This document shows, one piece after another, positions 1,485-34,497 of a stretch of 35,323 nucleotides of DNA. The DNA is from a virus, in IMG/VR virus record IMGVR_UViG_3300034012_000932, positions 1 through 35,323 of that record. One strand, written 5' to 3'. The translations under genes were made by a program, and so were the position numbers. The notes under the pieces were generated by a model. The model searched no databases. It saw only the letters and a program-made list of their open reading frames with translations, and was not told the origin of the DNA. Position 1 is the stretch's first letter; each line of letters begins with the position of its first letter.

Positions 1485-1656
1485 GAAGGGTCAGGGATTC
1501 TTCGTCCCTGCCCTGGACCTAGAGGCCGTGCGACAGGCGGGACTGCTGGCTGCAGTCCCGCTTCACATCAAGGATGCCCGCGCCCAGTTCGGTATCAGGC
1601 AAGGGCGGCTTGGGGTGTACTTCTACCGGATCGATTTACGTCGCGCCAGTCGCTAG
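1453..1656 (+). CDS. Small conserved phage protein (67 aa) following the DUF927 gene
   Basis: This 67-residue protein begins inside the last 32 bases of the DUF927 gene, an overlap typical of coupled phage genes. The N-terminus (YPWDRLEKGQGFFVPALD) looks like a small protein often found beside phage replication genes, where an aromatic and basic start is followed by a short helix and a basic C-terminal strand. No catalytic motif is visible and the function is unknown. It is a plausible accessory of the neighbouring ATPase. Its last 21 bases overlap the 3' end of the giant minus-strand gene. An alternative is that the ORF is fortuitous, but the conserved-looking start and its position argue against this. 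Confidence 0.65.
   Translation: MLRHYPWDRLEKGQGFFVPALDLEAVRQAGLLAAVPLHIKDARAQFGIRQGRLGVYFYRIDLRRASR
1535..1563. repeat. Strong hairpin in the convergent gene junction
   Basis: A perfect 9-bp inverted repeat (GCGGGACTG, 7-nt loop, CAGTCCCGC) lies at 1537-1561 and extends to 1535-1563 with one G-T and one A-T pair. It sits inside the 67-residue plus-strand gene and about 73 bp past the stop of the giant minus-strand gene. Neither strand has a U-run after it, so it is not a classical intrinsic terminator. It could stabilise or define a 3' end of the minus-strand transcript. Confidence 0.45.
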
Positions 1657-7600: not shown

Positions 7601-10476
7601 TGGAACAGAGCCTGACGTTTTACATCATCCGGCGTCGCTGTAGTGGGGGCTTCTACGGCTGCGCGGCCTGTGGCCGGGAAAGCCTTCAGCATGGTCTCGC
7701 GCCCAGCACCGGGGCGGGCAACACCTTCTTGCTGCGTCTCGATACGACGAAGCTGTTCGTCGAGCGTTTGGTAGAGGCTTTGGGGCGCGGCCTGTCCTTC
7801 TGGGCGTGTGGCTTTTGGCTGTTGTACGCTTTCAATCGCATCAGTATCGACAAGCTTTTGTAGTACCTGCTCGTCCGTCTGAACCTCCTGCGCACCTAAA
7901 GTTAAGAACGGTTTTTCATTACCTTTACGAATACGTACATCTGAAACCGTGTTAGCAAGCCTAGTAGGCTGCACTGGCGTAGCAGTTTTAGCGCCTTTCT
8001 TTTTCTCAAGTACAACAGGACGGAAGATTTCAACCTGTACTTCCGTGCCGTCTGCTTGCCGTGCAGAGTACGAAATTTTGGCTTCTTTACCGCTACTTAC
8101 AGGTGTATAGCTTGGCGTGGTATCAGCAGTGGTGTATCCCACCCCCGGCTTCAAACCTTCAGTAGCCTCACGCCCCGGAGCCTGCACATCCTCCTTGGGC
8201 AGCACAGACTCGACACGGCTCAGGAAGTCATACGCGTCATCAGACAATCCCGGGGTTGCCTGCAACCGGGCAAGGCGTTCGCTCAGGCCCTCGTAGGTCA
8301 CCTCACGGGCAGCGGGCTCGGCTTCGCCAAACAGCTTGAACTCACCGGCCACACGCTGCTTGGGACCAACAGGCGTAGCGGGCCCCTTGCGAGGCATCGC
8401 TTGGCCTTCCTGGGCAAGATCAAACAGCTTGCGCTGGAGGTTCTTCTCCGCGTCGTCCTTGATCTTCTGCAGCTTGGCTAGGCGTGCTTCAGGCACTGTG
8501 GCGTCTTGCCCTGCCGCCTTGCGTGCTGCAATCAATTCCTCAGTGGCGCGGATGGCTTGGTTAGCACGGTCGATACGCTTAGTCTCGGGGGCCAACTGCA
8601 ACTGCTGCGCAACGTCGGTCAGTGCACGACTGGGCGCAGGTACACCCTCCGTGGGAGCCAGCGCCTCGAACGCTTGGGCAACGGCACGCTGCTGGTCGGA
8701 CTTCTCAACGATGTCCCCCATGCGCTGCTGGAAGCCTTCAACGCCTTGGCCGACCCGCTGCGTGGCTTCGAACGCGGCCTTGGCCTGCTGTTGCTGTGCA
8801 GTACGCTGCTGTGCCGCTGCGTCTGCTGCTTGCTGCTCTTTGAGCGCCTCGGCTTCTGCAGACTTTTGCTGCTTGTCGCGCTCTTTAAGTTGCAGCTTTA
8901 GGCCGCTGAGAATCGCGTTGCTCTCACGCTTCTTCAACCCGGGAATTGCCACATCACCTGCCACAAGCGCTTGCGCCATCGCAGGGTCTTGCATCAGATA
9001 CGCCACGTAGAACGAGGGGCGATCAGCCGAATCCATCGAATCAACAAACGCCTGTTCATTTGCGAGGTTGATTCGAGACTGCGCGTAGGCGACTGCTGGT
9101 GCTGGAGAGGGCGGTGGTGGCGCGAACGTCTCTTCCCCGGTGAACACACGCGGTTGCAGAGGTGTGAGGTCCACACCGGCCTGCTCCATCTGGTATTCCA
9201 GAGGCGATAGCCCTGCAATGCGCTGTTGTTCAGGAGTTAGAACGGGCGGCTTCGCCGCTGCGGCAGCAGCCGCTTCCTGCTCACGGATGGGCCGTAGGAC
9301 GCCCATGACCCGGTTGTACTCGGGCGCTTGCTCCTTAAGCTGCTCGGTCAGCGCCTTGCGACGCTCGATCAGATCCTTGTTGGCCTGCCTGTCTGCGAAG
9401 CTAGCCCCCTTGGGCAGCTTCTCCTTGAGCGTGGCAGTGAGGTCGTTGTACTCCTGCTGCAGCGCCTCGTGTGACTGGGCGAATTCCTGCGCGTACTCAG
9501 GGGACTGCTTGCGTGCTTCCTCGGCCTCCTCGGCAGCAAGCTGTGCGTTGCGCTTGGCCTTGGCTTGCTCCGCAGTTTGCCTTTGCAAGACATCTTGCGC
9601 TGCGGCTTGTTCACGCCCGCGTTCTGTATAACGTCCAGGCACCGCCAGTGCGCCGCCCAGGACGGCACCACCGAGGAAGCTCTCGAAGTACTCGTCCCGA
9701 GCCTTCTCGTCCGTGATGTTCAGTCCCGCCTGCAAGCGCTCGAACACCTGTTGTGCAGCTTCGGTTGTACCTTCGATGCCTGCGGTCTTGCCTGTTTTGA
9801 CGGTGTAGTCGATGAGCGTTCTCTTCAGGCCCTGCTCAGCGATCTCCTTGGCGTTCTCAGCCGTAATCTTGATGCCCGCCTGACCGAACAAACGCCCGAT
9901 GCCCGGGATCATCCGCATGGACAACGTATCCAGCGCAGCTTGTGGGATGGCCGCAGCAGCGGCGGAGCCCAGGCTGGTCTCACCCAGCGTCTTGCCCTCC
10001 TCCATCTGACGAGCGAGGTTGGTTGCCGTGAACTGACCAGCAGAGGTCAGACCGGCAGCACCGAGCGTAGTGAGCGCGGCAGCAGTGCCCGTCACGGGCA
10101 ACGTAGCAGCGGCAGCACCAGCGGCAAGGGGCGCGGCCATGTAGGGCACAGACCCGCCCAGCAACTCTTTGAACTTGGTGAACGGCGCTTCAGTCCAGCC
10201 CTCTTCGGTGGGCTTAAAGATCTCAGCCGCACGTTTCTTGGCCGCTTGGTACTCGGCCTCTGCCTTGGCTTCATCCTTGAGGCCTAGCTTGCCTGCAAGC
10301 GCAGACAGCCCACCACCTAGCTCGGTAGCACCGGCCTTGGCCGCAGCAATGAAGCCGCCTTCGGGTTTTGCCCCTACACCTAACTGACGGCGAATGATTG
10401 CCGCCGCCTCCTCCCTGGACACACTGTCCGGAAATTCAACGGTGCGCCCATCAGGAAGTGCGACGGTGTATGTCAT
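1636..10476 (-). CDS. Giant polyvalent virion protein (2946 aa) with zincin-like metallopeptidase motif
   Basis: At 2946 residues this one gene fills a quarter of the window. The N-terminus (TVALPDGRTVEFPDSVSREEA) resembles a small domain seen at the front of large phage virion proteins. An Ala/Gly-rich hydrophobic stretch follows at about residues 108-156, then long Ala/Gln/Glu/Lys-rich, probably coiled-coil regions to about 1830. A zinc-peptidase motif HEGTH lies at 1933-1937, and E1986 in LSEFASEAL is a plausible third ligand. Around 2425-2680 lies a helical region (RQIVRDSTQAF, IPFFNAQIQGLN) resembling large polyvalent protein-associated domains. Such proteins are thought to be packaged and ejected into the host with the DNA. 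The gene follows its neighbour by 6 bases with no clear ribosome-binding site, so translation may be coupled. Two segments, about 4985-5460 and 7850-8115, are clearly A+T-richer than the rest. Peptidase activity and ejection are inferences. Confidence 0.85.
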   Translation of the reverse strand: MTYTVALPDGRTVEFPDSVSREEAAAIIRRQLGVGAKPEGGFIAAAKAGATELGGGLSALAGKLGLKDEAKAEAEYQAAKKRAAEIFKPTEEGWTEAPFTKFKELLGGSVPYMAAPLAAGAAAATLPVTGTAAALTTLGAAGLTSAGQFTATNLARQMEEGKTLGETSLGSAAAAAIPQAALDTLSMRMIPGIGRLFGQAGIKITAENAKEIAEQGLKRTLIDYTVKTGKTAGIEGTTEAAQQVFERLQAGLNITDEKARDEYFESFLGGAVLGGALAVPGRYTERGREQAAAQDVLQRQTAEQAKAKRNAQLAAEEAEEARKQSPEYAQEFAQSHEALQQEYNDLTATLKEKLPKGASFADRQANKDLIERRKALTEQLKEQAPEYNRVMGVLRPIREQEAAAAAAAKPPVLTPEQQRIAGLSPLEYQMEQAGVDLTPLQPRVFTGEETFAPPPPSPAPAVAYAQSRINLANEQAFVDSMDSADRPSFYVAYLMQDPAMAQALVAGDVAIPGLKKRESNAILSGLKLQLKERDKQQKSAEAEALKEQQAADAAAQQRTAQQQQAKAAFEATQRVGQGVEGFQQRMGDIVEKSDQQRAVAQAFEALAPTEGVPAPSRALTDVAQQLQLAPETKRIDRANQAIRATEELIAARKAAGQDATVPEARLAKLQKIKDDAEKNLQRKLFDLAQEGQAMPRKGPATPVGPKQRVAGEFKLFGEAEPAAREVTYEGLSERLARLQATPGLSDDAYDFLSRVESVLPKEDVQAPGREATEGLKPGVGYTTADTTPSYTPVSSGKEAKISYSARQADGTEVQVEIFRPVVLEKKKGAKTATPVQPTRLANTVSDVRIRKGNEKPFLTLGAQEVQTDEQVLQKLVDTDAIESVQQPKATRPEGQAAPQSLYQTLDEQLRRIETQQEGVARPGAGRETMLKAFPATGRAAVEAPTTATPDDVKRQALFQQKLAQGASRRDAAAAVFKATPQELEAAVAPAERKEVEGTAAVEKRLGRDISRDTIRGPSAQALPLSMQEELEPIISRLERGRAETQAGQQALFPEEQEKIVTERKTPAQFQRFLKSAAADRLRDIADPGRVVERSKERMAELQKTLDYLQGVIDEITEIRDKVFPIPRLNAARKELSKLETLIQGRETTTLGEAAFPGVSARIDALRSFLSAADEQTAKLKGARALLKKRGRASFDQYEVMLREAGGVLKKVTTQAELKGALEALERERNPARDARLSVIQQANISEQDKALLNEMVNAVNADEIALQKQIQEIDARLAYIDANIRLEDASQRMSDYADRAEPDATMLAAASKDVRTAQREVNKLKALVSRTETKLTAEEAARKRQRDAVDREERRTASAEKLKAEQARLERAQSAPEGVDAEGRPLQATTYPAITAAQRLAKEDPTPTILADEMRQIKGNPQQVLKGYKSRITDLTKQLQEALDRARRFTVEGVKERKPYENALAAYNRITSAEGRAKFEPTLRKLEEAYRDAVTNAMAARVMPKGVLGFQTQLAEMLRKEAWLQDRINRGAVETATVPTPTVRMTAQQKQAQEAERLAQYTQEAATRAESPEIDATETTKTQIEKARKSQKTRYTGKGVGQDTTITEDAAREQAEQRTMLRQPMTPQQREEQAILTIVNQAKDKKAKKEPLTEIEQMVLDQYNLSRSPSKGKAKEEVEEAAIEEDTSEERTERAYAKERATFEAEELEEVGGVQPTIASLFGVSAEEAESLGLPQVKSRKEFAETVQEQIRSAGTSTLARFATKRARLNDVESQLAFIEANKNGPVVAGAKTLSDKQQSAKQQLETEKGKLQTEIDALSKDLKKIKTPDIDAATETLEQLAATASQGPALKEPVDTEDSAAAVAANVAENGSTELNRAIGQRLKLLLGNTRMELVDDLRDPDGAAAYGQAAVDGSFIRLDKKYGLNERTFLHEGTHAAVERVLRMPEDRLTDAQLRAKRELEELFEAYKKLPNASNENAKTSLSEFASEALSDDVMQAEMRQQKWTLRHMWDTFKSLILDMLGVKTPANMLDATLASVDNLMTRVPRATAQDMSLLGPKVLNRPRGLNPELAEADAVARRVVAGNRSWWQGVKANSTGLGFETQVIDRFAGFERLRKYLPKLQGTQMMSYLRMYDQRMNFVSQSAGNGALDLLEIQRKDGEREFIIESQDGTSLRSVVITLKRATPMVGDANATSRLFTLYVAANRAKRVGYDKLDMSGQVTEQELRQVLQKVDSVPGLKDIFETARDQYNEYNEGLVRFAQKTGVFSKDYADKLLSAKDYIPWYRSRNGVVELVIGGEAPFKVGNVKDMPHLAELVGGDKPILDFTISSIQNTNMLVDMSLRNLATKNAVMELVDLGAAKVTNKPISGTDVVKFRVKGEDRYAILDTETIKVNGKDVNTGVPADLLVKGMEGIPVQLTGALRMMAMPTTILRKAITLMPPYMLRQIVRDSTQAFIASGADITPVLGALREIGSAAGKKLEKRGIVGGQMFTGTTEDISLIMRDMLQGGNLLNVGMGKLEALGMEADALTRRAQYNSYLKQGMSEMEATLLALESMNFNKRGASPSIHFANSMIPFFNAQIQGLNVLYRAMFGQITAAEKARIKQKLITRGMMMFAISLAYTHAMQDDEAYKNALPEDKYGNWFVRIPGVAEPLRVPIPFELGYIFKALPEALYNILVPKNYDNAAEGGNTAANAAARAASEQDAAAQAFKAILRNTVPGGSSYFIPQVFKPGIEVASNFSFFTGRDIVSAKEQLLLPQYQYRDQTTELAKLFGGAGISPIKFEALIRGYLGGAGMAVLAALSLPLVREGPEKATKRLSDMPVVGTMFQPNDARWIINNTFDQLREAQQVQASFKDLVNKGERAEAKQLLETRATDYARAELGGYLRQQMGELTQMETAIKASNKSPDEKREILNKIQQYRIRLASMTREASDAAKLQQLATGAT

Positions 10477-10482
10477 GGGTGG

Positions 10483-12246
10483 TTACTCGATTTGGCCTGT
10501 TGCGGGGTTGTACTTTAGCGTGGCACCGGGCTTGCCGCCCCTAAGTTTTGCGATTTCGTCTTTGACGAGCGCCTGGATCTCAGGCGGATACTGGCTTAGC
10601 ATGAACGGGTTGGCTATGACCTTTGCCACGATCTCTTTCACGATGGATGCTTCACCCTTAGGTCCTTGTTGTACTTCTACAAGCTTGCCAACATTCTCAA
10701 GCGTAGGTGCCAGTCCAAGTTCTCTTAAGAGCGCCACTGTCCCCGTAGGCTTGCCTGCATTGATTTCTGAGGCCCGCGCTTGCCGCTCAGTTGCCGCAGC
10801 CTTGCGACTTTCCAACGCTTGATCAAACGCCTTGTTCTGAACATCGCGCTCCAGCTTGGCACGTTCGGCTGCGTTCTGAGCAATTGCATCGTCAAGCTGG
10901 TTGACACGACCGTATTCTTGCTCATTCATCGCCTGCACACGCTGGGCCTCCAGCATGTTGCCGCGCCGAATGTTGGACTGAAGCAAACGCATGGTGCCTT
11001 GGGCGGTGGCGTACTCTTTGCGTGCAGCCTCAGCGGCGGCTTCGCGCTGACCCATGATGCCTGACAGGCCACGAGCAAACGAGCCCATGCCCTGACCCTT
11101 GCGGGTATCAATCGTCCCAGCCAGTCCAAGCAAAGCCATCGGGTCACTAAATACGTCACGCTGCGCACGCGCAAGTGCAGCATCCCGAGCAGCCAGAGCT
11201 TCCTTGCCAAACGTCTCGGCTTCAGCCCGCTCTTCAGCAAGGTTCTTCTGCATCAACGCTGATAGTCCTGCGCGACCTGCAAGCAGATCGGCGGGCAGCG
11301 TCTTGCGGCCTTCAAGTGCAGCTTTGCGCTCGTCATACATGCGCTGCTCTTCAGGAGTCAGCGTACTGCGAATACCGGGCATGAGAGCCGCAGGGGCTGC
11401 GGCGGGTGCTGCTGGGGGACGTTGTTGTCCTGTACCCAGGTTCCGTGCAGCCGCCACCGTTTCGGGTGTAGCCCCACGCGTATCTCGCATAGTCATCGGC
11501 ACAGGTGCAGGCATTCTCCCAAGCATCCGTGTCAGTTCGTCGCCTGTGTCAGTAGTGCTTTGTGCGGGATCGGGGAAACGCTCAGCAAACGAACGCCCCA
11601 CGCCTTGTTGACGCGATAGCGACATGCGTTTTTGCGCACGTGCTAAGCGCTCACTCAAGGGCAAACGAGGATCGTCGGACAGATCTTCCGTTTCACCACC
11701 ATCTTCAAACGCCACCGCACCGCCACCTGCGTAGCCTTGGTCGCCGGACGTAAACTGTTCTTGCTCCACTTGCTTGAGCATGTCCATAAGCTGACTTGCT
11801 TCGGCAACCTTACCTTGCGCCAGTGCGGTTTCAATACGGCGGCGTATTTGCTGCTCAGGACTTTGCTGCCCCGCTTGTTGTTCCACCTGTTGCATCTGCT
11901 GCGCTTGCGCCACTACTTGCTGTGCAATAGGGGGCTGTTGTCCAGCGTTCTGCTGCATAGCCATCTGGTTCTGCACTGACTTTCGTGCAGCCATCTCTTT
12001 CTGCTTCTCAACAATCGCAGCAAGTACTCGGTTCTTTGGGATGGGAGAGTTTGGGTCCCCAAACAATTGCAACATCTGCGGGATCTCAAGCCCCACCAAA
12101 GATGGCACAAACGCCGTCAGCCCAGGCTTCGGCCCCGACTGACTAGGCATCATCCCCGGCATTGGTTGCGTTTGCATAGGCGCTTGCCCGGGCATCGGGG
12201 CTTGCGCCCCTTGTGGCATCACCGAACGAATACCTTGCGGTTGCAT
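10483..12246 (-). CDS. Gln/Ala-rich virion-type protein (587 aa)
   Basis: This 587-residue protein has a Met/Pro/Gln-rich N-terminus (residues 1-40), a short ordered patch (LTAFVPSLVGLEIPQMLQLFG) and a Gln-rich helix-forming stretch at about 90-135. A Gly-rich motif (YAGGGAVAFEDGG) lies near residue 170, and a long Ala/Arg/Glu-rich, probably coiled-coil half occupies about 300-500. No enzymatic motif is seen. It lies directly upstream of the giant gene in the same operon, separated by 6 bp, which suggests an internal or ejected virion component, but its function is unknown. An AAGGA element precedes the ATG at 12246 and overlaps the stop of the preceding gene. The GG motif links it to several smaller proteins of this phage. 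Confidence 0.75.
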   Translation of the reverse strand: MQPQGIRSVMPQGAQAPMPGQAPMQTQPMPGMMPSQSGPKPGLTAFVPSLVGLEIPQMLQLFGDPNSPIPKNRVLAAIVEKQKEMAARKSVQNQMAMQQNAGQQPPIAQQVVAQAQQMQQVEQQAGQQSPEQQIRRRIETALAQGKVAEASQLMDMLKQVEQEQFTSGDQGYAGGGAVAFEDGGETEDLSDDPRLPLSERLARAQKRMSLSRQQGVGRSFAERFPDPAQSTTDTGDELTRMLGRMPAPVPMTMRDTRGATPETVAAARNLGTGQQRPPAAPAAAPAALMPGIRSTLTPEEQRMYDERKAALEGRKTLPADLLAGRAGLSALMQKNLAEERAEAETFGKEALAARDAALARAQRDVFSDPMALLGLAGTIDTRKGQGMGSFARGLSGIMGQREAAAEAARKEYATAQGTMRLLQSNIRRGNMLEAQRVQAMNEQEYGRVNQLDDAIAQNAAERAKLERDVQNKAFDQALESRKAAATERQARASEINAGKPTGTVALLRELGLAPTLENVGKLVEVQQGPKGEASIVKEIVAKVIANPFMLSQYPPEIQALVKDEIAKLRGGKPGATLKYNPATGQIE

Positions 12247-12255
12247 GTCGATTCC

Positions 12256-13920
12256 TTACTTCGGCGTAGCCGTAGGATTGAAGGCGTTGTACAGCGCCAG
12301 CCCAGCCAGTGCACCTTGCAGACCCGAGAACATCCCAGACTGCCCTTGATTTGACGAATACGGCGCAGCTTGCAATGGCAACCCACCCAACAACGACTGC
12401 ATGTACGTAGCCTGCTGATACGGGAACTTCACCGACTCTTGGAACTGCTGGTAGCCAAAGTCCAGAGGCTGCTGTGCAAGCGCCTGCTGGGTAGCGCCCC
12501 CCGCAAGCTGTGCGTTCAGACCTTGAATTCCTGCACCAAACTGTTGCTGCCCAAGGCCACCCAAGGTAGAAGCAGCGCTCAGCATCGGGTTGAGAGACTG
12601 CAGGCCCAGGTTTGCACCGAACTGCCGTGAGGCTTCCGTCTGCCTTGCGCCCTCAAGCCCGTACTGAGCACCCAACTGAGCAGCATTCATGCCTTGGCCG
12701 TAGCCGTATTGACGCGATTGCTCAGTGCCCTTTTGAGCTTCCAAACCAAGCTGAGACTCAGCAACACGCTGTGCCTGCGCACGATCATACGCGGACTGCA
12801 AGCCTTTCTCTTGGATATCCCCGATCTGCGTGCCCAAGTTGCGCTGACGCTCCGCTTCCATGATAGCTTGGCGTGACCCACCATACGCACCAGCTTGAGC
12901 CAGCCGCGCTTGTTCTGCCTGCCTGCCGATGTCCGCTTGACGCCGAGCTTCCCGAGCCTGGATATCAATGACGTTTTGCTGGTACGGATTCATGTAGTCC
13001 TGTACCGACTTCACATCACCCAGCCCCGTGCTCATCGTCTCGGGGGAGTACTCTTGCGGCGTCTGGTAGAAGTTTGCGAAGCGCCCAGGGGCGTAGTTGC
13101 CCAGGTTACCGGCGCTGATACCTGCTAGGGCGGCAAGTTGTGAACCCGCTTGAAACTCTGCGGGCAACTGAAGATTGCTCAAACCTTGGAACGCCTGCTG
13201 CTGCAGCGGCGACGGCCCCGCAAAGCGCTGACCCGTGAACGGTTGATACGGCAGGTTTGCCGCAGCCTCACCCTTTGCCAGCATGTTGTAGACATACGGC
13301 GAGAAGTTTGGGCTCAGCGTGGACTGAGAAGGATCAATAGTTGTGGTCTTTGCGGTGGTTGGTGTAACTCCGCCCGTGTACCCTTGGCCTTTCATCCAGT
13401 CAATATCGCCTTGTGACACACCGGCTTGCAAGAGCTTATCCGGAGCAACTTTGTTGGTGTTAAACCAGTTAATCTTTTGCTGAGCGTTGAATGAATCCCA
13501 CCCGGCAGGCAGGGTTAGACCAGCGAGTGTTGCTTGTTGCTGAGGAGTAGACGTAGGTGCGTTTACGGGCATTGTCGTAGCCCAATTCTCGTAGCCCATA
13601 TCCCCCATCGTATCAACAAGTTCGTTAGACACTCCTGCGCGTTGCAACTGACCGGGCGTAACCTTCTGTTCGTTAAACCAGTCAATCTTTTGATCACCCG
13701 TGTAGTTGTTCCAACCAGTGGGTAGCGTTAAGCCTGCTTGCGCAGCCTGCTGCTGCGGGGTCATTCCGGCGTAACCTTGACCCTTCATCCAGTCGATGTC
13801 GCCCTGAGATACGCCAGCGTCCAGCAGTTGATCTTCGGTTACACCGTTCTGGTTGAACCAGTCAATTTTTTGCTGGGCACCAAGGTTTTCCCAGCCAGTG
13901 GGCAAATTAGGCATAGCCAT
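12256..13920 (-). CDS. Virion-type protein with three N-terminal repeats (554 aa)
   Basis: The first 184 residues consist of three imperfect tandem repeats, at residues 6-65, 66-136 and 137-184. Each has the pattern LPxGW...QKIxWFN...AGVS...GY and ends with a PQQQA-type linker in the first two. The middle part (FSPYVYNMLAKGEAAANLPYQPFTGQRFAGPS) resembles a family of hypothetical phage structural proteins. It is followed by a Gln/Ala/Gly-rich probably helical region to about residue 460 and a hydrophobic Gly-rich C-terminus (GLQGALAGLALYNAF). A GAGGAG ribosome-binding site lies ahead of the ATG, which overlaps the preceding stop codon (TAATG). Its place between the fibre-like genes and the giant gene suggests an internal virion or ejection role. 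This is inferred from context. Confidence 0.75.
   Translation of the reverse strand: MAMPNLPTGWENLGAQQKIDWFNQNGVTEDQLLDAGVSQGDIDWMKGQGYAGMTPQQQAAQAGLTLPTGWNNYTGDQKIDWFNEQKVTPGQLQRAGVSNELVDTMGDMGYENWATTMPVNAPTSTPQQQATLAGLTLPAGWDSFNAQQKINWFNTNKVAPDKLLQAGVSQGDIDWMKGQGYTGGVTPTTAKTTTIDPSQSTLSPNFSPYVYNMLAKGEAAANLPYQPFTGQRFAGPSPLQQQAFQGLSNLQLPAEFQAGSQLAALAGISAGNLGNYAPGRFANFYQTPQEYSPETMSTGLGDVKSVQDYMNPYQQNVIDIQAREARRQADIGRQAEQARLAQAGAYGGSRQAIMEAERQRNLGTQIGDIQEKGLQSAYDRAQAQRVAESQLGLEAQKGTEQSRQYGYGQGMNAAQLGAQYGLEGARQTEASRQFGANLGLQSLNPMLSAASTLGGLGQQQFGAGIQGLNAQLAGGATQQALAQQPLDFGYQQFQESVKFPYQQATYMQSLLGGLPLQAAPYSSNQGQSGMFSGLQGALAGLALYNAFNPTATPK
13363..13905 (-). repeat. Three tandem protein-coding repeats of about 50-71 codons
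   Basis: Repeat units are encoded at 13726-13905, 13513-13725 and 13363-13512. The first and third units are the closest, sharing AGVSQGDIDWMKGQGY identically, whereas the second unit has diverged (AGVSNELVDTMGDMGY). This pattern suggests an older duplication followed by a more recent copy or conversion between the outer units. Confidence 0.8.
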
Positions 13921-14765
13921 TACGCGCTCCTCTGCAACTTGTTCATGATTTCGTACATGCGCTGTGCGCCGCCTTGATCGTCAACTGCAGCTTTAGGTAC
14001 ATAGGCTTCACCGCTAGACACTTTGGCAGGGGTGGTCCCGTTGGGGCCATGAATCACTGCAGGGGTGAGATCTTTGCGTCCTGTGGGGTCCGGTGGACCT
14101 CCGATCATTCTCGCACCTGGGACCAGTTGCTGTATACCCCTTGGGCCACCTGCGCCGTCCACAGCCTTCTTGGTCATGACGAAGCCGCCATCTTCCATCT
14201 GCACCTTGCCGCCGTTGGCGTAAGCCTGCATCAAGCCGCCGTTGGCTGCGTAGGTCACCAGCGGGCCGTACTTGCCGGGGACTGTGCTGGGCGTGAGTTG
14301 CTTGGACGGACCCGCGTAGGCTTGCGTTGCGCCACCGCCGTAACTTTCGCCCCTCTGTCGGTCGAGGTAAGACAAGAGCGCCATGAGCGCAGCGAGGCCT
14401 CCTTTGGAAGTGGCGAAGTCCAGCCCCTTGCCCAACAGCCCTTTGGCTCCTCCAGCACCCATCATGTCTTTGATCATGCGGCTAAAGGAGGTGTCCCCAC
14501 TAGCAGGACTTGTGCGGTACTCTTGGTCGGCAGTTTCTACGCCACCACCAGACGGCGTGCCTCCAACATCCCCAAAGCCACCTTCATCTGCATACGGATC
14601 GCGTGCGTATAGCGGCAATCCAGTAAAAATGTCTGGGTTTGAAGCTACGCCAGGGTCATCGTAGTTGTAGTTTTCCCAGTCATCAGAATTTTCCCCGCCA
14701 CTCATGGCGAATGAATTAGGATCAATATCATATTCCCCTGTAAAGGGGTTATAACGAGTTACCAT
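13920..14765 (-). CDS. Phage virion-type protein with GG motifs (281 aa)
   Basis: The N-terminal third is acidic and Gly/Asp/Tyr-rich (TRYNPFTGEYDIDPNSF) and probably flexible. A hydrophobic stretch (GLAALMALLSYLD) lies near residue 130. The C-terminal half carries repeated Gly-Gly motifs (YAANGGLMQAYANGGKVQMEDGG) and ends in a conserved-looking segment (PAKVSSGEAYVPKAAVDDQGG, then RMYEIMNKLQ). That ending resembles the tail of many phage structural-region proteins, where PA+LSDGE(F/Y)VIPAD is the common form. The function is not established. A GAGAGG ribosome-binding site precedes the ATG, and the stop overlaps the start of the next gene. Confidence 0.75.
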   Translation of the reverse strand: MVTRYNPFTGEYDIDPNSFAMSGGENSDDWENYNYDDPGVASNPDIFTGLPLYARDPYADEGGFGDVGGTPSGGGVETADQEYRTSPASGDTSFSRMIKDMMGAGGAKGLLGKGLDFATSKGGLAALMALLSYLDRQRGESYGGGATQAYAGPSKQLTPSTVPGKYGPLVTYAANGGLMQAYANGGKVQMEDGGFVMTKKAVDGAGGPRGIQQLVPGARMIGGPPDPTGRKDLTPAVIHGPNGTTPAKVSSGEAYVPKAAVDDQGGAQRMYEIMNKLQRSA

Positions 14766-14766
14766 A

Positions 14767-16248
14767 TCAACCTCTCAAATCGTACATCAAGCCAAACGGC
14801 GATTCTGGTGTGCCGCGTGCCACGTTTGACTGCGCAGGCATACGCACATCGTTTCCTTGGCTTCCCCCCATAGCACCGAGGAGTGCGAACAACGCAGCCA
14901 GATCCATGCCGGGAGCGGGAGCAGGTTTGGGCGCAGGACCGGGAGCGGGCGCAGGCCCAGGAGCGGGCGCAGGCCCAGGAGCGGGCGCAGGCCCAGGAGC
15001 GGGTGTGGTAGCCACAGTTCTATCTTCATCTGACGGCGTGTCAAGCGGCGTACCCGGCGTGCGGTCAGGCTCTTCCATGAAATCCCAGTCCGGGATGATG
15101 GTGCCTTCGCGCTTTCCTGTGATTTCAACCCGAGCAGGCTCACCCTCAGTTACGTTCACACGGCGCTCGGTGTCTACAAACGGTTGCAACCACGGGTCAA
15201 TGTTCAGGTCATCTCTACGGCCCGTAACACCCACTGTTTGGCTTGTCTCTTCACTCGGTACTTTACCTGCCTGTAGTACAGCATCCAGTGCATCATCCCA
15301 TTCAGGTACGCCCGAATATGTAGGCGTTGCACCTTCTTGATACCAATCATCGGCAGTTGCGGTTGCAGTTACGTCAATGGTCGGCCTATAAGGATCAAAC
15401 GCCCAGTCAGGCAGATCCCCTGCGTCGGGCTCCATGTACCCTGGCCCATCGACATCAAAGAAGCCTTCTTGAATTTCTCCGGGCGTCTCGTATCCAGGGA
15501 AGTATTTCTTGCCCGATTTGCCGCCAGCTTTACTAGCCCCCACTATCTCGTTAAAAAGTCCTTGGAAGTTATCGTTCTTTACAGCTTCTCGTATACGACT
15601 TGCTTGCCCTACGCCTTTTAGGACATCAGTAAGTTCTGTCGGGACTTTTGGTGCACCAGGGATACCTGATGTGGACTCAAGCAGCGCAAGGATGTCTTTG
15701 TTCTCAATTGCTTTCTGAATAGCGCTGCCAGTTTTTGCGTAGCCACCGGCAGTTTTTAGGGTATTTGCAAGCTCTGAACTTACACCTGGGATCTGACCCA
15801 CTCCAGGCAAAATTGACGCAGCGGCGGACAGCCAATCACCACTCTTGGCAGCCTGAACTCCCTTGTAAGCGTTTGCCGCAGCAGTAGCAATAGGGCCGAA
15901 ACCACCAAAACTTGCCGCGTTTACTGCAAATTTTACTAGGTCTGTTAGTCCAGAAGTCTTTTGCGGTTCGGAAATTGCGGTTCGTACAAACTTCCCGTTG
16001 TTGTCGTAGATATCGTTTCGGTGGTAACCTTCATATTTTCCTGATAGCGGAGCACTGACCATATACCCGTTTTCAGGTGCGTCTTCGGTACCTCCGTAAA
16101 CCAACGGGCGAACTTGAACCCCACTAAATTCAGCAACGGTGTCTAAAACTTGACCGCCAGGATCGCCTTCCCCGCTTGGGCCAGCCACAATAGACTGAAA
16201 CCCCGTCTTCAGGGCCTGATCTAGGAAAGATTTTGGATCGTAGGCCAT
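14767..16248 (-). CDS. Virion-type protein with Pro-Ala-Pro-Gly repeats (493 aa)
   Basis: This 493-residue protein has an ordered N-terminal half with a hydrophobic Ala/Gly-rich segment at about residues 105-150 (FAVNAASFGGFGPIATAAAN), a feature shared with phage internal virion proteins. From about 250 it is acidic and Pro/Thr-rich. It then runs into a PAPAPG repeat at about 418-448, followed by a short Ala/Leu helix and a basic C-terminus ending in YDLRG. No enzyme signature is visible. It abuts the next gene (1-bp spacing) in the operon. The 5' end is A+T-richer than its neighbours. The likely role is a minor virion or linker protein, inferred from position only. Confidence 0.7.
   Translation of the reverse strand: MAYDPKSFLDQALKTGFQSIVAGPSGEGDPGGQVLDTVAEFSGVQVRPLVYGGTEDAPENGYMVSAPLSGKYEGYHRNDIYDNNGKFVRTAISEPQKTSGLTDLVKFAVNAASFGGFGPIATAAANAYKGVQAAKSGDWLSAAASILPGVGQIPGVSSELANTLKTAGGYAKTGSAIQKAIENKDILALLESTSGIPGAPKVPTELTDVLKGVGQASRIREAVKNDNFQGLFNEIVGASKAGGKSGKKYFPGYETPGEIQEGFFDVDGPGYMEPDAGDLPDWAFDPYRPTIDVTATATADDWYQEGATPTYSGVPEWDDALDAVLQAGKVPSEETSQTVGVTGRRDDLNIDPWLQPFVDTERRVNVTEGEPARVEITGKREGTIIPDWDFMEEPDRTPGTPLDTPSDEDRTVATTPAPGPAPAPGPAPAPGPAPAPGPAPKPAPAPGMDLAALFALLGAMGGSQGNDVRMPAQSNVARGTPESPFGLMYDLRG
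14925..15004. repeat. 18-bp tandem repeat encoding PAPAPG
   Basis: Three perfect copies of an 18-bp unit (GAGCGGGCGCAGGCCCAG) occupy 14943-14996, flanked by degenerate or partial copies. The unit is in frame and encodes six residues, so changes in copy number would keep the frame of the 493-residue protein. Slippage at this site is plausible. Confidence 0.85.
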
Positions 16249-22334: not shown

Positions 22335-22856
22335 TCAGTTGACTATCTGCGTCCAGTTTGGACCTTGGACTGTTGGGACTTGAACCCACCCCGGAGCCTG
22401 AGCGTCTACAACCCCTGTCCAGTTTGGACCCTGCGCCGTAGAAACCATAGACCAACCCGGCGTTTGACTTGTTCCTGCCGCTGACCACCCCGGTGACTGG
22501 GCGTCTGATATCAGTTGCCAGTTAGGCGTTTGCCCAGATGGGATGGTAATCCAAGAGCCCGATGCCGTAAAGGAACTTTGCCAGTTTGGACTCTGCGTGC
22601 TCAGCACATCTGCCCAGCCCGGAGCTTGCGGTGTTGGAACATTGCCCCACGATGAAGCTTGTGTATTTACAACAATCTGCCAGTTCGGAACCTGCGTGTC
22701 ATCAATAATGTTCCACAGTGCCGTAGTGACAGAGACATTCCCAATGAAACCTTGGGCTTGAACTCCGGTGACTTGAACAATGACACTTGTACCAGAGGAA
22801 ACTGCTCCGTTGTAACTACCGAAGTAGCTGCCGAAGTAAGTGCCTGCGTAACTCAT
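22335..22856 (-). CDS. Tryptophan 11-residue repeat protein (173 aa)
   Basis: The N-terminus (YAGTYFGSYFGSYNGA) is a Tyr/Gly motif often seen at the front of small phage virion proteins. Residues 22-42 form a short Val-rich strand region. From W48 to W168 there are 12 tryptophans, 11 residues apart except for one 10-residue step, each in the frame W..V...Q.P(N/G)W. Such regularity suggests a beta-solenoid or stacked-hairpin rod. The gene overlaps the previous one by 4 bp (ATGA) and lies directly upstream of the Gly-rich fibre gene. It is probably a fibre or adhesin component. No homologous structure can be named from sequence alone. Confidence 0.75.
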   Translation of the reverse strand: MSYAGTYFGSYFGSYNGAVSSGTSVIVQVTGVQAQGFIGNVSVTTALWNIIDDTQVPNWQIVVNTQASSWGNVPTPQAPGWADVLSTQSPNWQSSFTASGSWITIPSGQTPNWQLISDAQSPGWSAAGTSQTPGWSMVSTAQGPNWTGVVDAQAPGWVQVPTVQGPNWTQIVN

Positions 22857-27630: not shown

Positions 27631-27795
27631 TCACCCCGTCTTCTGGTTCATGGCGCGGGACAGATTCTTGCCCAAGCGCATACGGTCCTCAGAGGTGGGA
27701 CCGCCCTTCTTGAAGGCTTTCCCGCCCTTGGCGAGCTTGGTCATCGGCTTGCCGGGGTGCATCGCACGCTCGTGCTTGTGAACATCTTTCATCAT
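27631..27795 (-). CDS. Small lysine-rich GG-motif protein (54 aa)
   Basis: This gene was found by reading the gap. It starts with two methionines (MMKDVHKHERAMHPG), has the motif KLAKGGKAFKKGG and ends in TSEDRMRLGKNLSRAMNQKTG. The ATG at 27795 is preceded by AAGGAG formed by the previous stop region (TAAGGAG). The stop lies just before the next gene. Basic and Gly-rich, it resembles short proteins of environmental phages whose role is unknown. The repeated K-G-G pattern links it to the motif family of this region. The packed layout and good ribosome site argue for a real gene. Confidence 0.65.
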   Translation of the reverse strand: MMKDVHKHERAMHPGKPMTKLAKGGKAFKKGGPTSEDRMRLGKNLSRAMNQKTG

Positions 27796-27801
27796 CGCTC
27801 C

Positions 27802-28194
27802 TTAGGAAACGGATACTGTGACTGTACCTACTAAACCACTTGGTGCCAAGGCATTTGGCGTCAAGGCGGCATCAAAACTTCTGGACCCACCCACAGGGTT
27901 CCAGCCCCACTCAATCACCCGGCTACCCTCGCCGATAGTCCCGATGGCAGTTTGTCCCGAGGCGTACCAAGTGTTCGTATCTGGGCGGGGATCGCGGATG
28001 GCCTGGGGGTCGCTGACTGGGTACATCCCGAGTTGCAACTGTGGTTGATCTGGGGTCCAACAAGCCGTACAGGCACGAATCTGCGTTTGCTTGGTTTTGA
28101 CTACGAGGTTCTTGAGCTTTTTGAGGTCGAAACGGAACCCGCAGACATCGCAGAAACCAAATGCCTTTGCGCCGTTTGCAAAGCGGTTGCTCAT
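27802..28194 (-). CDS. Zinc-finger-like phage structural-region protein (130 aa)
   Basis: The first half holds two Cys pairs (FCDVCGFRF and ACTACWTPDQP) about 30 residues apart with a Lys-rich segment between, which is a likely treble-clef or zinc-ribbon site. The second half carries DPQAIRDPRPD, then GWNPVGGSRSF and a beta-rich end. I recognise this as a family of conserved environmental-phage proteins near neck genes. The start overlaps the preceding adaptor-like gene by 4 bp (ATGA), so the two are probably co-translated. Zinc binding and a role in neck assembly are inferred. Confidence 0.7.
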   Translation of the reverse strand: MSNRFANGAKAFGFCDVCGFRFDLKKLKNLVVKTKQTQIRACTACWTPDQPQLQLGMYPVSDPQAIRDPRPDTNTWYASGQTAIGTIGEGSRVIEWGWNPVGGSRSFDAALTPNALAPSGLVGTVTVSVS

Positions 28195-28886
28195 GATATG
28201 AAATACTGCCTTGGTGTGAAGCGAACAGCGGCCTTCTCGCGGTCCTCGGAACTGGCAAGATCCCAGTCCTGATCGTATTGCGCCTTCAGCACCTGCATTC
28301 GCTCCATCGCACCGGGGATCTTCATGGACAGGTAATACGCCAGTCCTGACACCAAAGCGGGGATAAACCTGAACGGTACATCTTGTGTGTACGTCCCGCC
28401 CGCACCAGCGTCCTGAATCCTGCGAAGCCGCCAGTAGACAAGCGTGTACGTCTGAGAATTGTCAGGCGTGGGCCACACGGTGAACTGCGGCGCTGCTGCT
28501 TGGCGGTTGATCCAAATTTGGATCGGCCTTGCAGACTGGAGTTTGTTCGGGATGGACGAGTAGGTAGAAACTGAGATGCGCGTGATGGTCAGATCAGTCT
28601 GCGTGGAGACATTTCCTGCGCCCGTACGAATCACGTGCTCAATCAGATCCACCGTATCGGCGGGCAGCGTGTAGGTGTTTGTGCCAGCGGTCAGGACTTG
28701 TGAGCCTTGTTCGATGCACCACATGTTTATGCCGCGATTCGACCAATCTGCGAACAACAAATTTAACGACCGTCGTGCTGTCCTCAGGTCATAACCTGTG
28801 CGCAACTCAGCACCACAGCGCTCAAAGGCTTCCTCGACGTACTCATTGAGGTCGAGATTAAACGTAGCGGTGCCGGATGTGGTCAT
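28191..28886 (-). CDS. Neck / head-tail connector-like protein (231 aa)
   Basis: This 231-residue protein has helical start motifs (LDLNEYVEEAFERCGAEL, then ARRSLNLLFADWSNRGINMW) and a beta-rich middle (NTYTLPADTVDLIEHV, QFTVWPTPDNSQTYTLVYW). It ends in FIPALVSGLAYYLSMKIPGA. This is a pattern I recognise from conserved proteins annotated as tail tubular or head-tail joining in environmental podoviruses. Together with the protein at 26769-27425 it may build the connector below the portal. Its stop overlaps the next gene. The precise level in the neck is not deducible. The structural class is from resemblance. Confidence 0.7.
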   Translation of the reverse strand: MTTSGTATFNLDLNEYVEEAFERCGAELRTGYDLRTARRSLNLLFADWSNRGINMWCIEQGSQVLTAGTNTYTLPADTVDLIEHVIRTGAGNVSTQTDLTITRISVSTYSSIPNKLQSARPIQIWINRQAAAPQFTVWPTPDNSQTYTLVYWRLRRIQDAGAGGTYTQDVPFRFIPALVSGLAYYLSMKIPGAMERMQVLKAQYDQDWDLASSEDREKAAVRFTPRQYFIS

Positions 28887-28889
28887 GGC

Positions 28890-29156
28890 TTACTTTGCTG
28901 TCAGCGCAGAACGCTTGAAGGCTTTGGCAGTAGGAGCGCCGGGAGAACCCGGCTTGCGCATGGTTTCACCCGATCCAGCGGCAATCCGCTTGCGCTTGGC
29001 GTTGATGTTGGCGTAGAGCCCACCACCCTCGGCGTACTCGGCAAAGTCGGTGTTGTCCCTGCGGGCATGGCGTTTCCCGCCCTGAAGGAAGTCAGTGTTG
29101 TCACGGCGCTTCTTCAGTTCAGGTCGAATGTCACCCATGCCACGCGAAGGTCTCAT
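28890..29156 (-). CDS. Basic GG-motif small protein (88 aa)
   Basis: The chosen ATG at 29156 overlaps the previous gene's stop by 4 bp (ATGA). An upstream in-frame ATG at 29231 would lie inside that gene. The resulting 88-residue protein starts MRPSRGMGDIRPELKKRRDN, repeats RRDNTDF, and has the motif EYAEGGGLYANINAKRKRIAAG before a basic tail (KPGSPGAPTAKAFKRSALTAK). I recognise this type of small protein from environmental phage genomes. The function is unknown. High basic content and the shared YAxGG motif link it to the neighbouring small genes. Confidence 0.7.
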   Translation of the reverse strand: MRPSRGMGDIRPELKKRRDNTDFLQGGKRHARRDNTDFAEYAEGGGLYANINAKRKRIAAGSGETMRKPGSPGAPTAKAFKRSALTAK

Positions 29157-29455
29157 GTCAACTCCTGCACTCCACGCCACTGCCTGAAAGCTGGCGCCAT
29201 GTATTTTCCGCGCGGGATCGGACCAAAGCACACATAACGCAAAGCATCATCTGGCGTTGATCCCTGCGGATACCAATTCTTGCCGTCCCACAACGAGAAG
29301 ACAGGCTGCTCCACCTGATCCGGCCAACTTTGGTCAACCATGTAAACGCCTTTGCGTACAGGCTTAGACGTATGTTTGAACCACGGCGTCAGCGGCGGAA
29401 ACTTGGTATACCAACGGTCAACATTGACCTTGAGGCTTGGATCGTTGAGGTTCAT
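29153..29455 (-). CDS. Conserved small phage protein (100 aa)
   Basis: This 100-residue protein is rich in Trp, Pro, Lys and Phe (DRWYTKFPPLTPWFKH, DQSWPDQVEQPVFSLWDGKNW, RQWRGVQEL). The central WDGKNWYPQG resembles small beta-barrel proteins found beside phage structural genes. No catalytic or metal motif is seen, and its function is unknown. It lies in the run of small genes between the capsid and neck genes and overlaps the next start by 4 bp. The upstream 14-bp spacer allows an independent ribosome site. Confidence 0.65.
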   Translation of the reverse strand: MNLNDPSLKVNVDRWYTKFPPLTPWFKHTSKPVRKGVYMVDQSWPDQVEQPVFSLWDGKNWYPQGSTPDDALRYVCFGPIPRGKYMAPAFRQWRGVQELT

Positions 29456-29469
29456 TTTACGTCGTGCCC

Positions 29470-29838
29470 TTATACAAACCGGCCTTTGGTCTTTCCCTGC
29501 CGCTCACAACCGCCACCACGAACTTTGCCGCCGGAGGCGTAGCCTTTGACTTTGCCGCCTGATGCCTTTTTTACAGGTGGTGCTGTAAACTCTTCAAACT
29601 CCCGCCGTTTTTTCTCGTCTAACTGACGCGTTATCTCCGCCGCTTCCTGGGGCGATAGCACGCCGGTTTTTGACGCTTTAGCAGCACTTGCGGCAGGTTT
29701 GGAGGCAGGAGCAGCGCTTGGCATAAGCCTTCTTACTTGCGCAGCGTTAGCTGGGTTCTCCATTTGGTACTGCCGCATAAGACGGTTAACGATATCCTGC
29801 CCCGCCGCTTCTTGCTGCTTTGCAATATCGGTTGCCAT
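29470..29838 (-). CDS. GG-motif protein with basic C-terminal tail (122 aa)
   Basis: ATG at 29838 follows the stop of the previous gene with one base between. An in-frame ATG at 29910 would lie inside that gene and is rejected. The 122-residue protein starts with an Ala/Gln-rich helix (TDIAKQQEAAGQDIVNRLMR), has an Ala/Lys/Ser-rich flexible middle and a charged helix (QEAAEITRQLDEKKRREFE), and ends in two Gly-Gly motifs and GGGCERQGKTKGRFV. The terminal motif is closely similar to that of the next gene upstream. The role is unknown. The shared tail suggests a common binding partner or processing signal. Confidence 0.7.
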   Translation of the reverse strand: MATDIAKQQEAAGQDIVNRLMRQYQMENPANAAQVRRLMPSAAPASKPAASAAKASKTGVLSPQEAAEITRQLDEKKRREFEEFTAPPVKKASGGKVKGYASGGKVRGGGCERQGKTKGRFV

Positions 29839-29839
29839 G

Positions 29840-30055
29840 TCACACCACCTTGCACTTGCGAAGGCCGCGCTGTTCGCAGCCGCTACCCTTGACGGAACCG
29901 CCTTTGGCATACTTGGAGTCTGGCGTCAAAGCGCTCTTTTGCTTGTCTACAAGCATTTCACGGATTCCGGCAGGAATCGTTGAGTCAATCCCTTTCTTGG
30001 GATGACGCTTCTTCAGCGACTCTACTTCACGCTTAGATTCGGCTGCGTAATCCAT
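29840..30055 (-). CDS. GG-motif small protein (71 aa)
   Basis: This 71-residue basic protein starts MDYAAESKREVESLKKRHPKK, a Lys/Glu helix. It ends in KYAKGGSVKGSGCEQRG plus a basic tail (LRKCKVV). The tail matches the pattern YAxGGxVxGxGCE found in the adjacent gene (29470-29838). No enzyme motif is seen. The stop is followed by one base and the ATG of the next gene. It resembles small conserved proteins of environmental phages. The function is unknown. Confidence 0.7.
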   Translation of the reverse strand: MDYAAESKREVESLKKRHPKKGIDSTIPAGIREMLVDKQKSALTPDSKYAKGGSVKGSGCEQRGLRKCKVV

Positions 30056-30064
30056 GACTGTTCC

Positions 30065-30373
30065 TTAGCAGGCTTTGCCGCCCATTGCCATCTTGACCAT
30101 CTTGCCCTTGGTCTTGCCCTTGGACTCGATGCCGCCGCCCTTGGCGTAGCCCTTGGCTTCCTTCATCTCGTGCTTGAGCATCGACTTCGGAGCGCCCTTC
30201 TTCTTCATGAAGGCCACTTCCTTCTTCATCATTTCCTTGGACTCTTTCATACTGCCTCCTTCGGCATGTGCTTTGGGACCAACAAACTTCTTCGCTACGC
30301 TGGGTGAGACATCTGTCTTGCCTGCAAGTGAAGCATACATAAACCTGCGCTGTTTCTCGGACTCAACCGGCAT
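30065..30373 (-). CDS. Lys/Met-rich GG-motif protein (102 aa)
   Basis: ATG at 30373 shares one base with the stop of the upstream gene (TAATG) and has GAGGAAAG ahead of it. Upstream in-frame ATGs at 30391 and 30433 are less well placed. The 102-residue product starts MPVESEKQRRFMYASLAGKTD, a motif I recognise from small phage proteins. It continues with a Lys/Met-rich helix (MKKEVAFMKKKGAPKSML) and two motifs, AHAEGGSMKES and GYAKGGGIESKGKTKGKMV, ending in GGKAC. Functions of such proteins are unknown. The charge suggests DNA or protein binding. Confidence 0.7.
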   Translation of the reverse strand: MPVESEKQRRFMYASLAGKTDVSPSVAKKFVGPKAHAEGGSMKESKEMMKKEVAFMKKKGAPKSMLKHEMKEAKGYAKGGGIESKGKTKGKMVKMAMGGKAC

Positions 30374-33588: not shown

Positions 33589-34497
33589 TTAGGCTCCAGG
33601 GGAAGCGAACATTCCCAAAGGATCGCTGACGCCGAAAGAAAATCTTTCGCGCGCCTTGTACCGAGAGTTCCCGGTGTCGAAATCAGCGTCCATTGACGTA
33701 GCCAGCGGTACACGAACAAAGTGCTTCAGACCGTTGGGCACATCCGTCTTCAAGAACCAAGCGTTGGTGTCGGTCAAGAAGTGGTTGACGGTGTAGCCTT
33801 CCGGGATGGAGCCGTTGTTCTTCAGCGCGTTGATGTCGTTGTCGGTGGTGCCGACACGCAGCGACGTTTCCAGCAGTCGGGTTGCGACGAACTGGAGTTG
33901 CGGAGGAACGATCAGCTTGCGGGGCTTGGCAGCGATCAGCAGACCACGTTCGTCGGTCCAACCAGCGATCTGGATCACAGCCGCTTCGAGGGACGTTTCG
34001 TTCAGGTCAGCCGCCGTCGCAGGACGGTTGCTGTTGGTGCCGCCAGAAACCAGCGGGTGAGCCGTCGAGAACAGGGCTTGGCCGTCACCGTAGGTGAATG
34101 CCGAGTTGAAGCCGTTGTTCAGGATGGACGCCGCCTTGACCTGCTTGGTGTAAGCCATAGCCCGTGCGAGGGACTTGGTGTACCGGGCAGACAGACTGTC
34201 GTACAGGTTGTCTTCCATCGCCTCTTCGGTGATGGAGAAACCCATAGCGATGGTCTCGTGGTTGTAACGAGCGGTCCAGGCTTCCTGCGCATTGTCATAC
34301 GCGATGGCCGAGCCTTCGTTCTTCACCGGGGCGGCGGAGAAACCAGCGAGCTTGGTCTCTTCTTCAAACGAGCGCTCGGAGGTCTCCGTTTCGTAGATCT
34401 CCTTATGCTCTTCACCGTAGGTCTTGTACTCCATGCCAAACAGAGCGTTCAGCCCAGGCAGGAGTTCCTTCAGTAGTTGGGCACGTGAAATTGCCAT
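33589..34497 (-). CDS. Major capsid protein (Mu gpT-like, HK97 fold expected)
   Basis: The 302-residue protein has the features of gpT-like major head proteins. It starts with a helix (ISRAQLLKELLPGLNALFG), then EIYETETSERSFEEETKLAG, a helical core region (ETIAMGFSITEEAMEDNLYD, KSLARAMAYTKQVKAASILN), TSLEAAVIQIAGWTDERGLL and the ending SFGVSDPLGMFASPGA. I recognise this pattern from Mu-like gpT-type major capsid proteins of environmental phages. It assembles the icosahedral head. An AAGGAG ribosome site (7 bases before ATG) is present, and the gene is followed by its own terminator. This is one of the best-supported genes in the window. Confidence 0.93.
   Translation of the reverse strand: MAISRAQLLKELLPGLNALFGMEYKTYGEEHKEIYETETSERSFEEETKLAGFSAAPVKNEGSAIAYDNAQEAWTARYNHETIAMGFSITEEAMEDNLYDSLSARYTKSLARAMAYTKQVKAASILNNGFNSAFTYGDGQALFSTAHPLVSGGTNSNRPATAADLNETSLEAAVIQIAGWTDERGLLIAAKPRKLIVPPQLQFVATRLLETSLRVGTTDNDINALKNNGSIPEGYTVNHFLTDTNAWFLKTDVPNGLKHFVRVPLATSMDADFDTGNSRYKARERFSFGVSDPLGMFASPGA

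Follow-up and report, generated by a model that had tools for sequence, protein, structure and literature searches.

A common C-terminal peptide tag on unrelated small proteins of a fast-changing phage cassette

Why should neighboring phage genes with otherwise dissimilar products end in the same short peptide? The question is raised by IMG/VR virus record IMGVR_UViG_3300034012_000932, positions 1-35,323 of which make up the stretch of DNA analyzed here (35,323 nucleotides; "the window"). An earlier note, made from the letters of this DNA alone, had pointed to Gly-Gly motifs and near-identical tails in several of its genes. The three genes at 29470-30373 are part of a fast-changing cassette whose members have mostly unrelated bodies and a common C-terminal tag, and we regard it as nearly certain that this tag is genuine and works as a peptide. 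The tagged genes of the window and their tags, whose types are described below, are as follows (aa, amino acids).

29470-29838, minus strand: 122-aa tagged protein, body without a family match
29473-29541, minus strand: tag of the 122-aa protein, YASGGKVRGGGCERQGKTKGRFV, a hybrid with a type-B-like start and a type-A-like end
29840-30055, minus strand: 71-aa tagged protein, body without a family match
29843-29911, minus strand: tag of the 71-aa protein, YAKGGSVKGSGCEQRGLRKCKVV, type-B-like
30065-30373, minus strand: 102-aa tagged protein of the KQxxFM family
30068-30148, minus strand: tag of the 102-aa protein with its extension, YAKGGGIESKGKTKGKMVKMAMGGKAC, extended class of type A

A conserved tag on dissimilar proteins

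Both likenesses that the earlier note had drawn between these proteins are present: the adjacent 122- and 71-aa proteins have near-identical tails (GGKVRGGGCERQGKTKGRFV and GGSVKGSGCEQRGLRKCKVV), and the 122- and 102-aa proteins have KTKG(R/K)(F/M)V in common, as KTKGRFV and KTKGKMV. Loci from other phages were fetched in three ways, by the capsid protein (L006-L085), by a tag profile (L086-L165) and by the GGKVRGCG DNA pattern (L174-L253 listed). Since the tag itself served to fetch the later loci, tag frequencies are taken from the capsid-selected set. There, 22 of the 29 loci with at least 8 kilobases (kb) downstream of the capsid gene carry the strict type A tag; variants of the tag occur in the capsid-selected loci L010, L018, L057, and L080.

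The type A consensus, from 190 aligned cases, is [YMF]xxGG..SSAS[KS]R-A-D-G-[IC]-A-Q-[RK]-G-K-T-[RK]-G-[KR]-[MI]-[VC]-COOH, with core G, K, and T positions conserved at 98-100%, a figure that is partly a construction of the regular expression (regex) used. The type B consensus is [YMF]xxGGKVRGCG[MI]A[RK]xGVRxxKMV, at times followed by KMKGS or KMKGA. The tag is about 20-27 aa long. In 8015 open reading frames (ORFs), the type A regex has 318 matches, compared with 0 in the same proteins reversed, and the tagged set comprises 298 distinct type-A-tagged proteins from more than 100 phage loci. Placement is strict: the match lies exactly 3 residues ahead of the stop in 195 cases and at the stop in 18, and most of the remaining type A matches run on into a VKMxxGGKxC-like extension. 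This extended class, which reads VKMxxGGKxC in type A and KMVKMKGS/A in type B, takes in nearly all type A members of the KQxxFM family (37/39).

The tag core is also seen at the other end of a protein. Relatives of a 54-aa protein of the window open with ADGI[TA]KxGKTxGKNLGxSGP (L030:6807-7001, L055:5781-5975, and L074:11926-12114), so the type A core can also be N-terminal. Many tagged proteins also open with a KRYxGEE- or KRYxxGG-like element (L101:2350-3087, L129:1510-2181, and others).

Within one genome, tags on different bodies have 75% amino-acid identity, a value inflated by the regex. Codon identity at their shared residues, which is free of this inflation, is 0.445, compared with 0.408 expected from codon usage. 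Synonymous codons are thus near random while the amino acids hold, indicating that selection acts on the peptide. The same comparison rules out recent DNA duplication or gene conversion as the cause of tag likeness, and likewise a DNA or RNA element. The earlier note had taken a short peptide shared by dissimilar proteins as a sign of a common signal, not of common descent. This stands for the bodies; it does not hold for the tag itself, which may well be one old shuffled module with saturated DNA. For dissimilar proteins with a peptide under protein-level selection, a shared targeting or assembly signal fits better than descent of the whole proteins.

Clustering by body divides the 298 unique tagged proteins into 102 clusters, a threshold-dependent count in which the largest cluster (118) is a single-linkage merge. 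K, M, P, and G are abundant in the bodies, K at 2.35 times background, and Cys is nearly absent; 81% of the bodies are net positive, with a median net charge of +0.048 per residue. Stripped of the tag plus 14 aa, they contain [KR]x?[YFM][AKS]xGG 112 times, compared with 4.7 expected. The 122- and 71-aa bodies have no significant Pfam, PHROG or NCBIfam profile match. Domains recognizable under a tag are DUF6321 (fused, in L055 and L070), DUF6496 (in L101), and the KQxxFM module. Pfam DUF6321 and DUF6496 and PHROG 16028, 16759, and 22033 lie next to the cassette or are tagged in some members; they are body families, and none of them describes the tag. Nor did we find a description of it in the literature searched on DUF6321, phage Pag-Yong1, and virion or internal-protein motifs.

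In the KQxxFM family, 31 of 32 members have an N-terminal stretch of ~50 aa that matches the N-terminus of PHROG virion structural proteins, the module aligning to residues 1-56 and 1-48 of entries of 845 and 263 aa, respectively, that are labeled "virion structural protein." The window's own 102-aa copy is diverged and, taken on its own, gave no match to these. Relatives of the module occur in giant phages such as phiKZ (PHIKZ165.1), and in Stenotrophomonas phage BUCT555 it forms a 52-aa gene between the gene that follows the large terminase gene and the capsid gene. An AlphaFold2 (AF2) model of the 102-aa protein (mean predicted local distance difference test score [pLDDT], 60) has helices in the first ~75 residues and a tag without structure. 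Sequence searches of the PDB with the tag profile, tagged proteins, DUF6321, and the capsid protein gave no useful relative.

One cassette, one tag type, changing contents

Almost every locus, also when only the tag was used to fetch it, has its tagged genes in one cassette between the DUF6321 gene and the gene for an 88-aa protein or the adaptor. Its surroundings in the window are as follows.

33589-34497, minus strand: major capsid protein, with 63-72% identity to its counterparts in Pelagibacter phages HTVC023P/HTVC027P and Planktothrix phage Pag-Yong1
30551-30805, minus strand: 84-aa DUF6321 protein, upstream cassette edge
28890-29156, minus strand: 88-aa protein, downstream cassette edge
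28191-28886, minus strand: 231-aa head-to-tail adaptor, downstream cassette edge, with a predicted fold that resembles portal-tail adaptors, including T7 gp11

The DUF6321 profile (PF19846) scores 67.2 bits on the 84-aa ORF against a curated cut-off of 28.5; this protein neighbors the cassette and is itself untagged. The assignment of the 231-aa protein as a podophage head-to-tail adaptor of the T7 gp11 type is supported by its modeled fold, which matches portal-tail adaptors in the PDB, T7 gp11 among them, with Foldseek E values of 1.3e-6 to 1e-3 (model pLDDT, 64; template modeling [TM] score, 0.4-0.5).

A phage has from 1 to 6 tagged genes, co-oriented and separated by short gaps or overlapping. 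In ten longer contigs (49-67 kb), tags are essentially confined to the cassette, with one weak extra match in contig G008. Among the 80 loci fetched by the GGKVRGCG pattern, 75 bear the capsid or adaptor of the window's clade, which binds the tag to that clade. In bacterial metagenome-assembled genomes, tags were found on five contigs only, of mixed taxonomy, which are probably binned phage.

The contents of the cassette turn over quickly. Between near-identical phages (adaptors at least 93% identical), 47 of 78 tagged genes are without a partner having the same N-terminus. A homologue in the partner phage is detectable for half of the tagged bodies when adaptors are at least 95% identical (4 pairs only), compared with 12% when they are 60-70% identical. 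L129 and L101 have adaptors that are 99.6% identical and an identical 195-aa protein, yet their tagged bodies are swapped and the tag is retained. Some genes keep their ends and change the middle (L129/L101 and L216/L177), and others are replaced outright.

Genomes are almost uniform in tag type. Loci with several tags are pure A in 96 cases, pure B in 16, and mixed in 2, one of which is the window, a rare A/B hybrid. In B-selected loci, with the selecting tag excluded, the other tagged genes are 19 B and 3 A, and all 21 capsid-selected multi-tag loci are pure A. A single family follows the same rule: KQxxFM proteins carry an A tag 50 times and a B tag 23 times, in each case the type of the phage that encodes them. 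On the adaptor tree, tag type needs only 3 changes, with switches at L047, L058, and L060, compared with a shuffled mean of 28, so that type characterizes a lineage and switches as one unit. Because type follows the adaptor tree so closely, covariation between type and a partner gene cannot be separated from it. Whole-type switching fits co-adaptation to a shared partner and exchange of the whole cassette equally.

The looser YxxGG motif and the rest of the window

The earlier note had merged two things, the strict C-terminal tag of one cassette and a loose YxxGG motif found in several proteins of the head and ejection modules. The loose motif was described as (Y/L/H)AxGG in at least five small genes, and all quoted instances were located: with M also allowed in the first position, the motif is present in five small and two long genes of the window. 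The 54-, 88-, 122-, and 71-aa proteins have LAKGG, YAEGG, YASGG, and YAKGG, respectively, and the 102-aa protein has three instances (HAEGG, YAKGG, and MAMGG). As to the long proteins, the motifs are there, as YAANGG and YANGG in the 281-aa protein and as YAGGG in the 587-aa protein, but the claim of repeats is too strong for the latter because YAGGG occurs in it only once. Features outside the cassette that carry the motif, and the neighbors of the long proteins, are as follows.

29022-29036, minus strand: YAEGG motif of the 88-aa protein (phrog_16028; DNTDFxxYAEGG)
27631-27795, minus strand: 54-aa protein
27721-27735, minus strand: LAKGG motif of the 54-aa protein
13920-14765, minus strand: 281-aa protein adjoining the probable DNA-ejection protein
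14208-14222, minus strand: YANGG motif of the 281-aa protein, YANGGKVQMEDGGFV, invariant among homologues
12256-13920, minus strand: 554-aa protein, probable DNA-ejection protein, with a weak match to phrog_4287 (DNA ejection protein)
10483-12246, minus strand: 587-aa protein, putative ejection module
11719-11733, minus strand: YAGGG motif of the 587-aa protein (YAGGGAVAF), invariant among homologues
1636-10476, minus strand: 2946-aa protein with a C-terminal LPD38 domain, confirmed by Pfam

The motif is well above chance, with 9 occurrences of [YFLHMW]AxGG in the seven proteins named, compared with ~0.3 expected from per-protein shuffles. Its absence from homologous genes, which the earlier note had named as an outcome that would speak against it, is not what we see, because the motif is kept there: it is retained in 48/48 aligned pieces for the 281-aa protein, 24/24 for the 587-aa protein, and 82/85 for the 88-aa protein, counts that include near-copies and some overlapping loci. 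In gapped alignments of the 54-aa family, the motif is present 19 times and absent 33 times, with a GG following close by in most displayed rows.

The late module runs leftwards from the capsid gene through the small genes, the adaptor, the tail genes, and the probable ejection module to the 2946-aa protein, the N-terminus of which is TVALPDGRTVEFPDSVSREEAAAIIRRQLG. The 554-aa probable ejection protein has three imperfect N-terminal repeats (LPTGWxNxxxQQKIDWFNxxxVTxxQLLxAGVSxxxIDWMKGQGY). A 493-aa protein (14767-16248, minus strand) has a run of PAPGPAP repeats followed by a hydrophobic stretch, and a 173-aa protein (22335-22856, minus strand), retained in several relatives, is built of QxPxW-type repeats. 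A DUF927 protein, a probable primase/helicase, is encoded at the edge of the window on the strand opposite to these genes (3-1484, plus strand). Rfam and tRNA scans of the window were empty, and the only DNA repeats found in it are short and diverged.

A possible virion address among other readings

The reading that we favor, plausible if somewhat short of probable, is that the tag is a virion-incorporation signal that brings accessory proteins into the head or neck during assembly. The tag, together with the upstream YxxGG that recurs within the bodies as well as in the 281-aa and 587-aa proteins, would be a docking signal that binds one partner in procapsid or neck assembly (the capsid inner face, the scaffold, the portal, or the adaptor). 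Tagged proteins would thereby enter the virion and perhaps be injected along with the DNA. The bodies would then be freely exchangeable, as in the T4 internal proteins with only the capsid-targeting sequence shared, and each tag type would serve as the address code of one lineage, matched to the partner in that lineage. We infer both the virion location of the tagged proteins and their binding partner. The head-neck locus of the cassette and the sequence likeness of the KQxxFM N-terminal module to PHROG virion structural proteins point indirectly to the virion. YxxGG in the 281- and 587-aa proteins, whose genes adjoin that of the probable ejection protein, would also fit a virion role, but it is a looser motif and weaker evidence.

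Several observations weigh against a virion address. The within-genome excess of amino-acid similarity is small (0.753 versus 0.732; standard deviation, 0.007), and the one-type purity of loci can come from descent or whole-cassette exchange instead of fit to a partner. HTVC027P and roseophage CRP-901 have this capsid lineage and no tagged cassette between capsid and adaptor, so that the cassette is dispensable for this capsid in general. By FoldIndex, a simple charge-hydropathy index, 84% of the bodies are predicted to be disordered (<0), whereas T4 IPI is compact. The tag is basic and may bind nucleic acid. Neither proteomics, in the literature searched, nor a PDB structure was found for any tagged protein.

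In an unlikely alternative, the tag and KxYxxGG are nucleic-acid-binding peptides, and late in infection the small, basic, disordered proteins would coat the phage DNA, condense it, or bind RNA. The tag is rich in R, K, and G and the bodies are K-rich and mostly positive, but their median net charge is modest, and a binder acting through charge would need no exact C-terminal position, invariant DG..GKT core, or genome-wide switch of type. It is rather unlikely, too, that the tag is an element of assembly or of the neck, its bearers being disordered tethers, plugs, or chaperones at the portal or adaptor, anchored through the tag and YxxGG and with a body that serves as a spacer, free to vary in length. 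The cassette does adjoin the adaptor gene, YxxGG elements are repeated within bodies, and some genes keep their ends and vary their middles; numbers that range from 1 to 6 genes, with none in some relatives, would nevertheless be odd for a part of fixed stoichiometry.

We consider it quite improbable that the tag addresses a host target (a membrane, a protease, the ribosome, or another complex), for example in takeover or evasion of defenses, with proximity to head genes reflecting late expression only. Quick change of the bodies is typical of host-interaction proteins, and two cultured marine alphaproteobacterial relatives are without the cassette, with Pag-Yong1 having a tagged gene (UMO75986.1) and DSL-LC04 having variants. 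Against this reading, the tag is tied to one phage clade and one head-neck locus, and one tagged family bears a module common to virion structural proteins. As for tags without any dedicated function, left by an old tandem duplication on fast-decaying bodies and kept by chance or recombination, adjacent genes with a common end are the trace such an event should leave. We hold this to be very improbable, since the peptide is ~75% identical despite near-random synonymous codons, so that selection keeps it, and since it sits on recognizably different domains (DUF6321, DUF6496, and KQxxFM).

The closest functional parallel to a virion address is provided by the T4 internal proteins IPI, IPII, and IPIII, which are diverse, exchangeable small proteins from a polymorphic locus with one short peptide in common. 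Here, 298 proteins in 102 body clusters have one tag, and the carrier set varies between close relatives. The T4 capsid-targeting peptide is N-terminal and is removed by the prohead protease. By contrast, the present tag is C-terminal and longer, exists in two types and an extended class, and sits on mostly disordered bodies with no known protease step; no cleavage signature was found in the tagged proteins, although processing may occur. Given its different position, at or near the C-terminus, the tag is not a member of the T4 capsid-targeting family, and the proposed likeness is functional, the sequences being unrelated. Among the T4 internal proteins, only the targeting sequence is conserved (PMC3012670), and they have a role in host range (PMC9391042).

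A second comparison is with the ejection-protein sets of phiKZ-like giant phages such as SPN3US, in which many head proteins are packaged with the DNA and then ejected (PMC5694885 and PMC10052503). The KQxxFM module likewise occurs in phiKZ and other giant phages. Their ejection proteins use propeptides cut by a phage protease, a signal of which none was found here, and we know of no shared C-terminal tag in these sets. HTVC023P-type pelagiphages and relatives have the same major capsid lineage (63% identity) and a conserved adaptor; HTVC027P and CRP-901 differ in having no tagged cassette.

More doubtful than a docking role as such is the wider proposal that a widespread aquatic clade uses a modular C-terminal address, unlike described packaging signals, in which two or more codes exclude one another and through which any fused body would be loaded into the virion as exchangeable, hypervariable cargo. 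The tag groups hundreds of otherwise unannotatable small phage proteins by function and predicts their destination. If it is a virion address, it would open the cargo of abundant uncultured aquatic phages to direct test, and it would offer a short C-terminal peptide to try for loading proteins into phage heads.

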